Assembly (NCBI GenBank): GCA_030041005.1
Contig: JASHOR010000147.1
Coordinates: 1-57,860 of the forward strand
Direction: 5' to 3'
Length of the DNA stretch: 57,860 nt
Source: Xanthobacteraceae bacterium
Lineage (GTDB): Bacteria; Pseudomonadota; Alphaproteobacteria; Rhizobiales; Xanthobacteraceae
Part shown: one piece after another, positions 5,150 to 57,859 of the stretch
How positions within the stretch are numbered: position 1 is the first letter of the stretch
Layout of the letters: every line of letters starts with the position of its first letter
Made by a program: the position numbers and the translations under genes
The notes under the pieces: generated by a model
Databases searched by the model: none
What the model was told of the DNA's origin: nothing
Seen by the model: the letters and a program-made list of their open reading frames with translations, nothing else

Positions 5150-5330
5150 ACGACCAATCCCCGGGTGCGGAGCCGCATCGGCCGTCGGAGCGTCGATCCC
5201 GGGTTCCCTACGAAAGTAGGTGGGCGCCATGTGTCCGAGCCCACGAGCCCGGTCAGGGATAGCTCCCTTCAGGATCGATAAGGCCCCGGGGATATGTCTC
5301 CTGACGCGCCGCGCAGCATCCGCCGCGGCA
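5150..5330 (-). ncRNA. ssrS: probable 6S RNA (ssrS)
   Basis: The 438-base gap between zapA and the cyclo-ligase is the conserved site of 6S RNA, which binds RNA polymerase holoenzyme in stationary phase. The minus strand here folds into long imperfect helices: AGGGAGCTATCCCT near 5254-5267, GGGCTCG/CGGGCTCG near 5232-5245, and CCTACTTTCGTAGG near 5211-5224. The limits are approximate. A possible -10 (CTACAT on the minus strand, 5331-5336) would start the RNA near 5325, but no clear -35 is seen. The flanks 5053-5149 and 5337-5490 hold nothing else I can identify. The call rests mainly on synteny. Confidence 0.6.
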
Positions 5331-6499: not shown

Positions 6500-8587
6500 A
6501 TGTCAATGCCGGACCGTGCCGTCGCGGCGAGCGCACTCCCCCTCGCCCAGGCTGCTTGCGTTGCCGCTTCGCCGGCTACATCCGCACACACGGCGTCAGC
6601 CGGGCGTGCGGAGCACGATCGCATGGCCAACGCCGTGCGCGCACTGGCAATGGACGCCGTCGAACAGGCAAAATGCGGCCATCCCGGCCTGCCGATGGGC
6701 GCCGCCGACATCGCCACCGTTCTGTTTGCGCGCTTTTTGAAGTTCGATGCCGGCGATCCGGAATGGCCCGACCGCGACCGCTTTGTGCTCTCCGCCGGCC
6801 ACGGCTCGATGCTGCTCTACGCGCTTCTTCATCTTCTCGGTTATGAGAAGATGATGATCGACGAGATCAAGCGCTTTCGTCAGCTCGGCTCGCTCACGCC
6901 CGGTCATCCCGAGCACGGCCACACGCCGGGCGTCGAGACGACGACTGGACCGCTCGGCCAGGGGCTAGCGAACGCGGTTGGCATGGCGATCGCCGAGCGG
7001 CATCTGGCCGCGGAATTCGGCAGCGATATTGTCGATCACTTCACCTATGTGCTCGCCTCCGACGGCGACCTGATGGAAGGCATCAGCCAGGAGGCGATCG
7101 CGCTCGCCGGCCACCTGCAGTTGAGAAGACTCATCGTTTTGTTCGACGACAACGGCATCTCGATCGACGGGCCGCTGGCGCTCGCCGATTCCGTCGACCA
7201 GGTCGAGCGTTTCCAATCGGCCGGATGGGCGGCAGCGCGCATAGACGGCCACGATCCCGCCGCGATCGCCGACGCGATCGAATTAGCGCAAAAATCAGCG
7301 CGCCCATCGTTGATCGCCTGCCGAACCACGATAGGATTTGGCGCACCGACCAAAGCCGGTACCGAGAAGGCCCATGGCGCGGCGCTTGGCGCGGATGAGA
7401 TTGCGGGCGCGCGACGGGCGCTCGGCTGGAGCCCGCCGGCCTTCGAGATTCCCCCGGAGATCCACGCGCTCTGGCGCTCTGCGGGCGACCGCGGCCGGCC
7501 AGCGCGGTTGGCCTGGGAGCGACGTGTTGCAATGCTTCCCGGCGAACAGCGAGCAGAGTTCGAGCGCCGCCAGCGCGGCGAATTGCCGAATGAGAAGCTT
7601 GCTGCCGCAATACGCCGGACGAAGCAGATGCTCGCCGACAAGCCCAGGCAGATCGCCACGCGCGCGGCGTCCGAATTGGCGCTCGAAGGGCTTACCGCCG
7701 CCTTGCCGGAGATGATCGGCGGCTCCGCCGACCTTACCGGCTCGAACAATACGCGCGCCAAGGCCATGACGGCTTTGAGTGCCGCCGATTATTCCGGCCG
7801 TTTCATCCATTATGGCGTGCGCGAACACGGCATGGCAGCGTCGATGAATGGTCAGGCATTGCACGGCGGCATCATCCCCTATTCCGGAACGTTTCTGGTG
7901 TTCTCCGATTATTGTCGGCCGGCGATCCGGCTCGCGGCGCTGATGGGTCAGCGCGTCATCCACGTCATGACCCACGACTCGATCGGACTTGGCGAGGACG
8001 GGCCGACCCATCAGCCGGTCGAGCATTTGGCCGCGCTGCGCGCCATTCCCAACCTGAAAGTCTTCCGCCCCTGTGATGCGGTCGAGACCGTCGAGTGTTG
8101 GCAATTGGCGCTGCAGAACGGTAGCGGCCCGAGCGTACTGGCGCTGACGCGGCAAAACGTGCCGCAGCTACGCCGTGGGTTTGACGACGGCAATCGCTGC
8201 GCAGCGGGCGGCTACGAGCTTGAACCCGCCGACCAGGGCGAGGCCGTGGTGTCGCTGTTCGCCTCGGGTTCCGAAGTCGCGATCGCAACGGCGGCGAAGA
8301 AGCTGCTCGGCGAGCGCAAAATCCCCACGCGCGTCGTGTCCGTGCCCTGCTTCGAGCTTCTCCTTGCGACGCCGCCGGATGAGCGCGCGGCTATCGTCGG
8401 CAACGCCAGAGTGAATGTCGCCGTCGAAGCCGGCGTCCGGCAGGGCTGGGACGACATTATAGGCTCAGCCGGCACCTTTGTGGGCATGAACGGCTTCGGA
8501 GCGAGTGGGCCTGGTCAGGAGCTTTACCGGCACTTCGGCATTACGCCCGAGACGGTTGCACAAGCCGCATTGGACAGCTTTAACTAG
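6500..8587 (+). CDS. tkt: transketolase
   Basis: Thiamine-diphosphate enzyme moving two-carbon ketol units in the pentose-phosphate (and Calvin) pathways. From ATG 6500 it has 695 residues. Visible motifs: [50 protein letters not shown], the ThDP/metal segment [13 protein letters not shown] with the later DDNGISIDG, and [18 protein letters not shown] in the pyrimidine-binding domain. The frame is open back to 6413 with a non-conserved leader; a promoter overlapping that region argues for the later start. First gene of a tkt-gap-pgk-fba block. Its TAG stop coincides with the CTAG edge of a palindromic repeat. Confidence 0.95.
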
Positions 8588-8675
8588 TGGTCCGGTTCCG
8601 ACCTTCGCATCCCTTTTTGGCAGGCCCTCGTGCGGATGTTGGAATCAAAGGGCCGCCGGCAAATATAAGTGCTAG
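8584..8675 (+). repeat. CTAG-edged palindromic repeat, subtype B, site 1
   Basis: Begins at CTAG 8584-8587, which includes the tkt stop codon. Left arm GGTTCCGACCTTCGC and right arm GCGGATGTTGGAATC pair imperfectly around a loop containing GGCAGGCCCTCGTGC. The right arm is followed by AAA and the partner of the outer GTCC, then a 20-base spacer ending ATAAGTGCTAG. The same B-plus-spacer unit recurs at 12544-12638 (reversed) and 26584-26677. Together with the following units it fills the tkt-gap interval (8588-8991). Confidence 0.85.
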
Positions 8676-8730
8676 TGTGGCGGTTCAGAAGTCCGCATCA
8701 TTCCTGCCGCGACCTCGTCATGCGGACTAG
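8672..8730 (+). repeat. CTAG-edged palindromic repeat, subtype C, right arm truncated
   Basis: Starts at CTAG 8672-8675 with GTGTGGC and the stem arm GGTTCAGAAGTCCGC, then the loop CATCATTCCTGCCGC. The right arm stops after GCGGAC and runs into CTAG (8727-8730). A full-length copy at 57783-57859 shows what is missing. It abuts the B unit at a shared CTAG. Confidence 0.8.
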
Positions 8731-8742
8731 ATCAATAAGTTG

Positions 8743-8813
8743 CTCCTTCGATTCCGAAGTTCGCAAACGAGGGCGCCGCATAATTGATGCGAACTTCGGA
8801 ATCGGGACACTAG
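8743..8813 (-). repeat. CTAG-edged palindromic repeat, subtype D
   Basis: A perfect 15-base inverted repeat: GATTCCGAAGTTCGC (8750-8764) and GCGAACTTCGGAATC (8789-8803). It ends with GGGACACTAG, sharing CTAG 8810-8813 with the next unit. Read on the minus strand it has the same frame as B and C: CTAGTG, outer block, stem, CATC...CCTCGT loop, stem. The left outer block is poorly kept. Confidence 0.8.
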
Positions 8814-8889
8814 TGCAGCTTTTGGATTTGACATCCGCTTCAGGGGCGAGTGGCGCGGGGGGTAGCGGATGTCAAATTCGCCCTACTGG
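8810..8889. repeat. CTAG-edged palindromic repeat, subtype A, site 1
   Basis: Arms GGATTTGACATCCGC (8824-8838) and AGCGGATGTCAAATT (8864-8878) flank a loop containing GCGAGTGGC and a G run. The loop is nearly the same in the copies at 12471-12550 and 26674-26752. It ends near CTACTGG. The rest of the interval to gap (8890-8991) holds a small hairpin and the gap ribosome-binding site. Confidence 0.82.
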
Positions 8890-12399: not shown

Positions 12400-12474
12400 C
12401 TAGTGTCCCGATTCCGAAATTCGCATGACGAGGTCGCGGCAGGAATGATGCGGACTTCTGAACCGCCACGCTAG
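12400..12474 (-). repeat. hybrid C/D palindromic repeat, site 2
   Basis: CTAG at 12400-12403 and 12471-12474 bound this unit. One side carries the D-type block GTCCC plus GATTCCGAAATTCGC. The other carries the C-type arm, reading GCGGACTTCTGAACC plus GCCACGCTAG, with the C-type loop between (GACGAGGTCGCGGCAGGAATGA). The two arms still pair at most positions with wobbles. It looks like a recombinant of two subtypes. Bases 12336-12399 before it show nothing recognisable. Confidence 0.8.
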
Positions 12475-12550
12475 TGGAGCGGATTTGACATTCGCTACCC
12501 CCAAGCCACTCGCTCATCAAGCGAATGTCAAATCCAAAAGCTCCAGTAGC
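12471..12550. repeat. CTAG-edged palindromic repeat, subtype A, site 2
   Basis: GGATTTGACATTCGC (12481-12495) and GCGAATGTCAAATCC (12521-12535) are perfect 15-base inverted arms. The outer GGAGC/GCTCC blocks also pair, with an extra AAAA on one side only. The loop contains CCCCCAAGCCACTCGC, the reverse of the loop at sites 1 and 3. It shares CTAG 12471-12474 with the hybrid unit. Confidence 0.88.
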
Positions 12551-12638
12551 ACTTATAGTTGGTAGTGGTCCTTTGATTCCAACATTCGCACGAAGGCGTG
12601 CCAAAAAGGGGATGTGAATGTTGGAATTGGATCACTAG
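12544..12638 (-). repeat. CTAG-edged palindromic repeat, subtype B with spacer, site 2
   Basis: Reversed copy of the B unit. The spacer AGCACTTATAGTTGG comes first, then GTGGTCC-TTT-GATTCCAACATTCGC, a loop with CACGAAGGCGTGCC, and GTGAATGTTGGAATTGGATCACTAG. The terminal CTAG (12635-12638) touches the start codon of the ThiE-like gene at 12639, so that gene's ribosome-binding region lies inside the repeat's right arm. With the two preceding units it fills the 303-base gap after fba. Confidence 0.88.
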
Positions 12639-22163: not shown

Positions 22164-22191
22164 GCAAAAAAGAGCCGCCGTTGCCGGCGGC
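22164..22191 (-). terminator. strong intrinsic terminator
   Basis: On the minus strand GAGCCGCCG and CGGCGGCTC (22170-22191) form a perfect nine-pair GC-rich stem with a four-base loop, followed by six T residues (22164-22169). It ends transcripts coming from the DUF1192 side, or those of the candidate small RNA at 22164-22290. Confidence 0.85.
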
Positions 22192-22290
22192 TCAAGGTGA
22201 TAACAGGGAGGCGTCAAACAGAGTGGACAGGAGCCACTCGATGTCCAAAAGATGGACGATCTCTGTAATGAACGAGAAAGCTTAACAAAA
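22164..22290 (-). ncRNA. candidate small RNA with anti-Shine-Dalgarno loops
   Basis: The 362-base gap between rcdA and the DUF1192 gene holds three hairpins in a row on the minus strand. First is GTCCA-TCTTT-TGGAC (22243-22257). Second is GAGTGG-CTCCTGT-CCACTC (22221-22239). Last is the terminator at 22170-22191 with its T run. The second loop exposes CTCCT, and the linker before the terminator contains CCTCCC (22204-22209); both are complementary to ribosome-binding sites. This layout resembles trans-acting regulatory RNAs of alphaproteobacteria. The 5' end and promoter are not clear. Bases 22291-22389 and 22028-22163 show nothing further. Confidence 0.45.
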
Positions 22291-22389
22291 AATTAATAAG
22301 CTGCAGAAGTTCATCGCACCGCGTCGGAAACACGATAGGAGCCTGTCCCATGGCCTCGGCCGAGGCCAGCCCACCAGGGCGCCGGCAAG

Positions 22390-26583: not shown

Positions 26584-26677
26584 CTAGTGGTCCGATTGCA
26601 ACATTCGCATCCCATTTCCGCACGCCCTCGTGCCAATGTTGGAATCAAAAAGCCTACCGGCAAGTATTAAGTGCTCG
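26584..26677 (+). repeat. CTAG-edged palindromic repeat, subtype B with spacer, site 3
   Basis: CTAG 26584-26587, GTGGTCC, arm GATTGCAACATTCGC, a loop with CCGCACGCCCTCGTGCC, right arm CCAATGTTGGAATC, AAAAA, then the spacer ACCGGCAAGTATTAAGTGCT. Same orientation and layout as site 1. The right-hand edge reads CTCG rather than CTAG. It lies between yqgE and the DsbD-like gene. Confidence 0.86.
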
Positions 26678-26752
26678 TGGAGCTCTTGGATTTGACATTC
26701 GCTTCCTGAGCGAGTGGCTTGGGGGTGGCGAATGTCAAATCCGCTCCACTGG
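26674..26752. repeat. CTAG-edged palindromic repeat, subtype A, site 3
   Basis: GGATTTGACATTCGC (26688-26702) and GCGAATGTCAAATCC (26728-26742) are perfect arms around a loop containing GAGCGAGTGGCTTGGGGG. GGAGC/GCTCC outer blocks also pair, ending CCACTGG. It follows B plus spacer directly, as at site 2. Together they fill most of the 26493-26804 interval. Confidence 0.88.
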
Positions 26753-40547: not shown

Positions 40548-41084
40548 TCACCAACCCCAATCTCCGTAACCCCAACCGGGTCCGCAACTCCAGCCTCCAT
40601 AGCCTCCGTAACCCCAACCTGATCCGTAGCCCCAACCGGGTCCGTATCCGTAGCAGGAGGCATAATCATAGTAGGGCCAACCGCCGCCATAATACGCATA
40701 GAGGCCTAACCCCGGACCGAAGAACCGACCGCGGTAGCCATAACGACGGCCATAGCCATAACCATAGCCGCGACCATAACCGTAGCCGCGGCCATAGCCA
40801 TAGCCGTAGCCGCGACCATAACCATAGCCGCGGCCATAGCCATAGCCGTAGCGTGCACCAAAACCCAGACCAGGACGAGCGAACGCAGTTCCGCCTACAC
40901 CTGGACCGCCGAACCCGCCCGGATGGGCGAATCCGGCTGAACCGCCGAATCCGCCTGGGCCGCCACCGGGATGACCACCAAATCCGCCGCCGGGGCCGCC
41001 GTGCGGTGCTGCCACCGCGCCAGTTGTCACCATCGCAGTGCCGAGCGCAATCGCCGCCGCAATGGAAAGGATCGTGTTACGCAT
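40548..41084 (-). CDS. exported Gly/Tyr-rich low-complexity protein
   Basis: A 178-residue protein with a clear signal peptide (MRNTILSIAAAIALGTAMV, cut after AVAA). The rest is low complexity: a Gly/Pro/His/Phe part (residues 27-70), a tandem GYGYGR(G) stretch (about 77-120) and a Gly/Trp/Tyr tail. Two Cys lie in the tail. Many rhizobial genomes encode such exported GYR/GY-rich proteins with unknown function; structural or stress roles are guesses. The repeat stretch is visible in DNA at 40738-40860. Confidence 0.78.
   Translation of the reverse strand: MRNTILSIAAAIALGTAMVTTGAVAAPHGGPGGGFGGHPGGGPGGFGGSAGFAHPGGFGGPGVGGTAFARPGLGFGARYGYGYGRGYGYGRGYGYGYGRGYGYGRGYGYGYGRRYGYRGRFFGPGLGLYAYYGGGWPYYDYASCYGYGPGWGYGSGWGYGGYGGWSCGPGWGYGDWGW
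40738..40860 (-). repeat. short tandem repeat coding for Gly-Tyr-Gly-Arg units
   Basis: Imperfect units of 12 to 24 bases built from CCATAGCCGTAGCCGCGACC-like words repeat about six times, inside the Gly/Tyr-rich gene. Because the unit is a multiple of three, gain or loss of units keeps the frame, so length may vary between strains. Confidence 0.8.
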
Positions 41085-57695: not shown

Positions 57696-57782
57696 TGGCG
57701 GACGGCCAAGGTCGTCACGATGCGGGGAGGCTGCCGAGCCTTTGAAGGCGATGGGCTCGGCTGCGCTGTGCAGTGCCGTTAC

Positions 57783-57859
57783 TCGTGTGGCGGTTCAGAA
57801 ATCCGCATCATTCCTGCCGCGACCGCGTCATGCGGATTTCTGAACCAAAGCCACACGAG
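57783..57859 (+). repeat. CTAG-edged-type palindromic repeat, subtype C, complete copy (site 4)
   Basis: CTCGTGTGGC and GCCACACGAG (outer blocks) and the arms GGTTCAGAAATCCGC and GCGGATTTCTGAACC pair perfectly around the loop ATCATTCCTGCCGCGACC. An unpaired AAA sits on the right side only, as in subtypes A and B. It is the undamaged form of the truncated copy at 8672-8730, with CTCG/CGAG edges in place of CTAG. It follows the CMD-family gene by 87 bases. Confidence 0.9.

Follow-up and report, generated by a model that had tools for sequence, protein, structure and literature searches.

The window analysed here, a stretch of 57,860 nucleotides from a Xanthobacteraceae bacterium (contig JASHOR010000147.1), contains ten hairpin units edged by CTAG or related tetramers, all of which were located where an earlier sequence-only reading (the original prediction) had placed them. 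These repeats are real, numerous and covarying. They are probably non-autonomous elements of the IS630 family of insertion sequences (ISs; Tc1/mariner-like) that have a double-hairpin build, stems kept in place and arms that change together. Derivation from IS630 is likely, and the role of the hairpin we infer from how copies change. Below, L numbers denote loci and G numbers genomes.

The exact sequence CCAACATTCGC occurs in 81 copies in the source genome and in none in the reversed control, and the pattern CTAGTG-N(1-12)-arm gives 278 matches against 0. A layout detector blind to the stem letters, which considers an edge tetramer, an outer block, a stem and a one-sided extra or none, found 176 hairpins of 73-85 bp in a total of 959 kb, made up of fetched loci that were in many cases chosen for the copies they hold, and 3 in the same sequence reversed. 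The two arms differ in length by 2-4 nt in 175 of the 176 hairpins, and by exactly 3 in 139. Folded as DNA, five hairpins gave z-scores from -7.1 to -9.7; two of them lie in the window, two elsewhere in the source genome and one in the Afipia relative G237.

The basic element is a composite of about 166 bp, in which two hairpins have their inner ends facing across an A+T-rich spacer of 10-14 nt. The common frame originally described for a single unit does recur, but the unit is one half of this composite. Composite lengths range from 154 to 167 bp, with no transposase gene inside. The head-to-head composites whose spacer measures 10-14 nt number 66 altogether, of which 59 are A-B, C-D or E-F and seven show other pairings (class assignment is approximate), while 44 of the 176 hairpins lie outside such pairs. 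Subtypes E and F form a further stem pair with the same architecture in Afipia massiliensis (G034). Spacers often resemble CAANTATANGTTT in the B>A order and CAACTTATTGAT in the D>C order. When arms were paired in 19 stretches from the source genome, the window and one relative's array (L040, G017), the hairpins were CC (26), BB (22), DD (22) and AA (19), together with four cross-subtype hybrids and 12 lone arms. The three extra bases lie on the inner side, a feature partly used to recognize the 66 composites and visible independently in the arm-pairing tally. An AAA extra on one side only had been predicted; the one-sidedness stands, and its position is now given as the inner side, facing the spacer (AAA/TTT in intact window units).

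Composites also occur in compound forms. Tandem arrays share an edge tetramer (L040). In L039, L037 and site 1 of the window, a C-D composite, facing one way or the other, is nested in an A-B composite at the inner tetramer of its A hairpin, and L036 has one D hairpin inside an A loop. Forms made of two outer arms only are found at 12400-12474 of the window and at L029, L038 (two), L050, L064 and L081. Further stem subtypes in the same frame were noted at L048, L052, L057, L063 and L072 (e.g. CGATTTGAAGTTCCT and GCTTTTCGAAGTTCGC). By eye, C stems of the source genome mostly have a recurrent mismatch, with AAGTCC in the outer arm against AACTCC or AAATCC in the inner arm, although some copies match.

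Covariation and in-place conservation of the hairpin arms

Covariation is commonly taken as proof of a selected structure. Across 171 units (five of the 176 were set apart, four being far from any class and one lacking asymmetry), 45 paired double changes were counted within subtypes, compared to about 10.5 expected from the column rates with independent arms; when identical units are collapsed, the numbers are 40 and about 14.3. The same 171 units show 78 single-arm changes plus 24 single changes of the G-T type. The end tetramers are affected as well: they are complementary in 21 of the 33 units in which both ends differ from CTAG, whereas shuffling gives a mean of 8.8 and none of 20,000 shuffles reaches 21. 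Among 32 E-F copies, 23 outer tetramers are other than CTAG, and for 19 of these the inner end is the exact complement, in a table where three F units were not parsed and two insertions common to G237 and G226 are counted twice. Since copies share descent, neither the 171-unit nor the tetramer counts represent independent events.

Change in place was followed in ten orthologous insertions with 18 hairpins in all (nine insertions are E-F elements, the tenth is a C hairpin), each compared either for the pair G034 and G237 or for the pair G237 and G226. The comparison leaves out L178/L254, which could not be oriented, and the undetected F unit of L122, whose tetramer change is also coupled. Substitutions per site amount to.019 in stems,.014 in outer blocks,.090 in tetramers,.120 in loops,.135 in spacers and.061 in flanks, which puts the stem rate at about one sixth of the loop rate in the same insertions. 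Inner arms, which were not used for picking copies, are as slow as outer arms (.032-.034 and.027-.036, respectively). In 450 pair columns there are seven coupled changes against 0.38 expected, and 12 single changes. Six of the seven coupled changes preserve pairing, and five fall in the tetramers. Slow stems and coupled changes in unmoved orthologues therefore indicate that the hairpin is conserved in place and that its arms co-change without transposition. The compensatory change claimed in the original prediction is thus real, in the 171 units as in the ten orthologous insertions; as a test, it holds as an excess over chance, but coupled changes do not outnumber single-arm changes (45 versus 78 plus 24, and 7 versus 12).

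Covariation in place needs selection on the hairpin, templated copying from arm to arm, or both. Compensatory change alone is no proof of selection, because arm-to-arm template switching can yield it in one event. The slower change of stems than of loops is a separate sign of selection, and we infer from the in-place pattern a combination of selection with arm-to-arm templating. With the same insertions traceable between species, selection, marked by slow stems and a kept bulge, becomes separable from templated copying, marked by coupled changes that extend to the terminal tetramer.

Template switching (quasi-palindrome correction) alone, with a hairpin that has no function, appears unlikely to account for the whole pattern. 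It would explain why coupled changes are seen in orthologous, unmoved copies and why five of the seven fall in the terminal tetramer, which is expected to have little weight for stem stability; the mechanism is described in part of PMC8794818 as able to create and maintain hairpins. On general reasoning, however, unbiased copying should leave the overall rate unlowered, yet stems are about six times slower than loops, and unrestricted copying between arms should erase the one-sided extra that is present in 175 of 176 units. A guide pairing like that of IS605, with the inner tetramer guiding the choice of target, was set aside because the tetramer pairs change together in unmoved orthologues.

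An alternative about as improbable as template switching alone is that the hairpins serve the host as terminators or as RNA-stability or RNA-processing elements, with selection acting on the transcript. Stems conserved in place would fit such a role. Many Afipia elements begin exactly at a neighbouring TAG stop, with a median distance of -3 on the stop side (from a crude gene caller, with some copies counted twice), and RNase processing of hairpins in miniature inverted-repeat transposable elements (MITEs) is reported for Correia elements in part of PMC10969869. However, the elements are not depleted between divergent genes, a setting that calls for no terminator: divergent gaps hold 11 of 28 classified sites in the source genome compared to 31 of 139 control gaps, and 8 of 32 sites compared to 43 of 147 controls in Afipia. 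Presence or absence between relatives is also common. By a simple gene caller, the remaining sites of the source genome include nine codirectional and eight convergent gaps, with six more sites at edges or inside called open reading frames (ORFs), and the control gaps include 84 codirectional and 24 convergent ones. Intrinsic terminator function is unsupported, as the gene context, from crude gene calling, does not fit it. As a separate observation on gene ends, many elements among L112-L123 and L215-L234 (G034 and G237) start at an ORF stop that is the TAG of CTAG; by eye, at L113 and L123 the TAG of the element replaces the TGA or TAA stop that the gene has in empty relatives.

The probable IS630 link and insertion sites

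The source genome carries an IS630 element (L277, 1369-2532) with a DDE_3 gene of 362 aa (NCBIfam IS630, E 1.5e-80). Its ends are CTAGTGTTCCGTCCCGGAAATTCGC and CTAGTGTTCCGTCCTGTAAGTTCGT; the former is identical to the D end (and to F) at 19 of 25 positions. The other end, on the right, reaches 17 of 25 and has one CTAG in common with a C hairpin. Ends of the CTAGTGGAT type were found on IS630 elements of Nitrobacter, Bradyrhizobium elkanii and Methylocystis, and each of these ends matches its best A/B-type arm at 19-21 of 25 positions. Over five IS630 loci (L277, L279, L303, L306 and L307) the best end match is likewise 19-21 of 25. When random CTAGTG-N19 sequences were compared with the same eight arms in 20,000 trials, 14 of the 19 free positions were reached with a frequency of 1e-4, whereas the left end of the elkanii IS630 matches at 15 of 19. 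Given outer ends like IS630 terminal repeats, the composites are read as non-autonomous IS630 derivatives, that is, MITEs.

On this reading, each composite has IS630-type terminal repeats at both outer ends (B/D/E-type on one side and A/C/F-type on the other) and no gene. An IS630 DDE transposase would act in trans on the outer ends and insert the element at CTAG or a near match. Each end also carries an inverted copy of itself and so folds into a hairpin, about 25 bp long, in which one side has 2-4 nt extra. After insertion the hairpins are kept, probably by templated arm-to-arm correction in replication together with selection against unpaired or bulge-less forms. More tentatively, it is possible that the element ends became self-templating hairpins: the arms would be mutual templates, with substitutions passing from arm to arm in single events and selection holding the bulge and stem; A-F would then be stem 'alleles' produced by concerted change, each fitting an IS630 lineage, and insertions would persist after the transposase is gone. 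The original prediction offered two options, a selected hairpin or one enzyme accepting different stems. Slow stems suggest the former. In place of a single enzyme, several IS630 lineages seem to be involved, judging from few IS copies, since the A/B-like ends find a counterpart in one IS630 and the D-like ends in another. The double-hairpin family comes with a testable candidate mobiliser.

Preference of IS630 for the TA in CTAG is reportedly the subject of a 1991 title by Tenzen and Ohtsubo. E-F elements of 154-165 bp are present or absent at 30 sites among four genomes (G034 and three others of its genus), each site being compared with at least one relative that lacks the element; L191 was not parsed, and two insertions shared by G237 and G226 form two table rows each and are counted once here. 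At empty sites the flanks join closely, often with one tetramer left and elsewhere with a few bases more or fewer. At two sites, both filled ends and an empty relative share one tetramer other than CTAG (CCAG at L193 and CTCG at L184). A-B composites are present or absent at three sites, where the empty tetramers are CCAG, CTAG and CTCG, the second lying next to a gap of 17 bases and the third next to a difference of 4 bases; all three are CTAG or one change from it, and these three sites favour CTAG targeting for A-B. Transposition in the IS630 family duplicates TA, as described for ISY100 in part of PMC2170065.

Several results weigh against the IS630 derivation. The likeness of the arms to the five CTAGTG-ended IS630 loci is 17-21 of 25 letters, and six of these are the shared CTAGTG itself. 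Among the eight IS630 loci compared, no CTAGTG-type ends were found for L304 (Sinorhizobium) and L305 (Rhizobium), and L278 (G226) shares little beyond CTAGTGG, with only 14-15 matches. Outside that eight-locus comparison (L275, L276, L280, L281 and L282), the IS630-type locus L275 has CTAGAG ends and L276, L281 and L282 have no clear CTAGTG ends. DDE_3 matches over the cut-off occur in the source genome (L277), in G035 (L279, with A/B-like ends) and in G226 (ends unlike the arms), whereas G034, G237 and G239 carry E-F copies yet show no DDE_3 match, and no mobiliser of this kind was found there. The nearest E-F copy in the same genome is at most 0.94 identical among 52 sampled copies, and there has therefore been no recent E-F burst; taken with the lack of DDE_3, this makes the E-F sets look old and now immobile. 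No composite was seen in transposition. At the E-F sites, CTAG is present in an empty relative at only 4 of the 30 (L113, L114, L188 and L190), and the others read TCAG, TTAG, CTGA, CCGG, CTTG and so on. Two or three empty relatives agree on a non-CTAG tetramer at L181 (CCGG), L175 (CTTG) and L123 (CTGA), those at L180 hold just one or two bases there, and in 15 of 32 E-F copies the outer tetramer on the left is not the same as that on the right.

Some of these results would follow from an insertion unlike that of IS630, in which the element brings its own tetramers and takes the place of roughly four bases in a degenerate target; the likeness of its ends to IS630 would then be due to chance or be ancient. 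The empty relatives that agree on non-CTAG tetramers (L181, L175 and L123) favour this, as does the finding that outer tetramers agree better with the inner tetramer of their own hairpin than with one another. It is nevertheless an improbable account, slightly more so than a host RNA role: four E-F sites do have CTAG in an empty relative, the three A-B sites are CTAG or one change away, and L193 and L184 keep one tetramer at both filled ends and in an empty relative. Furthermore, CTAG itself is poorly kept. Between G034 and G237, which are 94% identical, random CTAG is retained over L215-L234 at 36 of 64 places (some of them inside elements), compared to 0.65-0.92 for twelve other tetramers; poor retention therefore explains part, not all, of the non-CTAG empty sites.

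In five IS630 loci (L303, L306, L307, L277 and L279, two of which have identical ends) no internal inverted copy of the end was seen, the best match being 7-11 of 16 letters, a figure that has no chance control. A pattern search of eight genomes for isolated outer ends of an autonomous A/B element led, among the matches listed, to places that are composites, hybrids or the E-F repeat, with a reversed control giving 1 match in all. Solo ends at L049, L065 and L070 have no obvious transposase in their ORF lists, which were inspected by eye with no family search made. An apparent case of different composites of G034 and G237 at the same CTAG (L208) was rejected, as the A-B copy lies about 60 bp away.

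Distribution and comparison with other repeat families

Double-hairpin repeats occur in many alphaproteobacteria. The exact 24-base B end is found in 36 stretches of the named genome collection, with carriers that include Afipia, Nitrobacter, Bradyrhizobium, Mesorhizobium and metagenome-assembled genomes labelled Rhodospirillaceae and Caulobacteraceae. The A/B end is present in 18 of 199 sampled genomes of the order and in 12 of 100 genera, with none in reversed controls. Plasmids of Aminobacter, Martelella (two records), Bradyrhizobium and Rhizobium carry matches to the A-B composite with 69-73% identity, that of Rhizobium spanning half of the query. The Aminobacter and Martelella copies have stem letters altered in step in both arms, and the copy of Bradyrhizobium CB82 is degraded, its arms now poorly matched. 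The C-D composite had no match when searched against plasmids. The family is thus widespread and may explain part of the unannotated intergenic palindromes of these bacteria.

A mobiliser of the RAYT kind (REP-associated tyrosine transposase, an IS200/IS605-like Y1 enzyme) recognizing a hairpin and a tetramer, as for repetitive extragenic palindromes (REPs) and bacterial interspersed mosaic elements (BIMEs), is very improbable, despite features that resemble the REP/BIME organisation described in part of PMC3733652, namely hairpins with a fixed bulge and a tetranucleotide foot, pairs set head to head, and tandem arrays (L040). Y1 matches over the cut-off occur in 31 of 199 genomes of the order and the A/B end in 18, no genome has both, and a scan of 30 Y1 loci turned up just one weak arm match, at a single locus. 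Six element-bearing genomes gave no Y1 match, and the source genome holds a single below-cut-off Y1 remnant (L041, G000:C30:1676-1783) with an internal TAG and no units found beside it. The hairpins here, at 73-85 bp, have a tetramer at both ends, rather than GTAG at one end of a 20-40 bp hairpin. The RAYT/IS200-type transposase suggested originally is accordingly unsupported, with none of the 18 element-bearing genomes having Y1 over the cut-off, and was rejected on the disjoint genomes and on Y1 loci without intact flanking units.

In their outer ends, CTAG edges, lack of genes and presence or absence between species, the composites are like IS630 insertion sequences and their derived MITEs; they differ in that each end has its own inverted copy, which gives two long back-to-back hairpins, and in having arms that change together and are conserved at their insertion sites. 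Rhizobium intergenic mosaic elements (RIME) are another repeat with two large palindromes, a likeness in general description. REPs and BIMEs, including the GTAG and CGTC families of Bradyrhizobium and Rhodopseudomonas, are also intergenic palindromes in pairs or clusters with complementary stem variants, to judge from part of PMC3733652; in contrast to these, the composites have 73-85 bp hairpins, a CTAG-type tetramer at both ends, a 10-14 nt spacer and no Y1 association. Br-REP1 and Br-REP2 of Bradyrhizobium japonicum are repeated palindromes of the same bacterial family, but the two consensus sequences printed in the relevant part of PMC5082802 differ from the A-F stems in a by-eye comparison. 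Bru-RS1 and Bru-RS2 of Brucella are likened by description alone, as a related pair of palindromic repeats of 103-106 bp from the same order that are reported, in parts of PMC10800456 and PMC2266754, to be preferred insertion places of an IS with a YTAR target. No description of CTAG-edged double hairpins was found in the limited, partly accessible open-access literature searched.

Hairpin copies and other features of the window

The copies in the window are listed below by position, strand and structure.

8584-8889, strand ".", site 1: A-B composite with a C-D composite (8672-8813) inserted in the CTAG of the A inner end; the same nesting is found in L037 and L039
8584-8659, + strand, B hairpin: outer CTAG at 8584, AAA at 8647-8649, inner tetramer CCGG at 8656-8659
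8660-8671, spacer after the site 1 B hairpin
8672-8730, + strand, C hairpin: outer end at left, right arm cut down to GCGGA plus CTAG; classed as a lone arm in hairpin pairing
8731-8742, spacer between the site 1 C and D hairpins
8743-8813, + strand, D hairpin: inner end at left (tetramer lost, TTC extra), outer CTAG at 8810-8813
8810-8889, + strand, A hairpin of site 1: inner end at left, outer end CTGG at 8886-8889
12400-12474, + strand, D/C hybrid: outer arms of D and C joined via a C-type loop, inner halves of the D-C composite missing
12471-12638, + strand, A-B composite: A hairpin 12471-12549, spacer CACTTATAGTTG 12550-12561, B hairpin 12562-12638
26584-26752, + strand, B-A composite: B hairpin 26584-26660, spacer 26661-26673, A hairpin 26674-26752
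57782-57859, + strand, C hairpin: outer tetramer CTCG and inner CGAG, which are mutually complementary

Eight of the ten units are intact one-subtype hairpins, as had been supposed for all of them; the exceptions are the truncated C hairpin and the D/C hybrid, which joins incompletely matching arms of different subtypes. Similarly, CTAG edges are frequent, but the window edges also include CTCG, CCGG, GTAG and CTGG. Matches of about 165-175 bp to 12471-12638 recur in the source genome and its genus. CTAG is depleted in the window (22 occurrences compared to 62.7 expected), and 8 of the 22 fall within hairpin elements. At the Rfam gathering score, only 6S and BjrC1505 were matched in the window, neither of them at the hairpin sites.

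The two Rfam matches are a 6S RNA at 5166-5322 and the alphaproteobacterial sRNA BjrC1505 at 22165-22308, both on the minus strand. Positions 2090-2226 hold a long imperfect palindrome pair that starts with CGTCATTCCGGGG; it belongs to a different repeat family and by eye resembles the CGTC-type REPs of Bradyrhizobium or Br-REP2. Elsewhere, CTAGTGGTCAAAATCTGACATTTGC of G132 and G096 was rejected as a candidate IS end, being a hairpin within a repeat of about 125 bp; that repeat (L283-L289) is another CTAG-edged one, and its hairpin has a 5-nt loop. Finally, dense short repeats of the CCATAGCC type occupy 40562-40872 of the window, within open frames.

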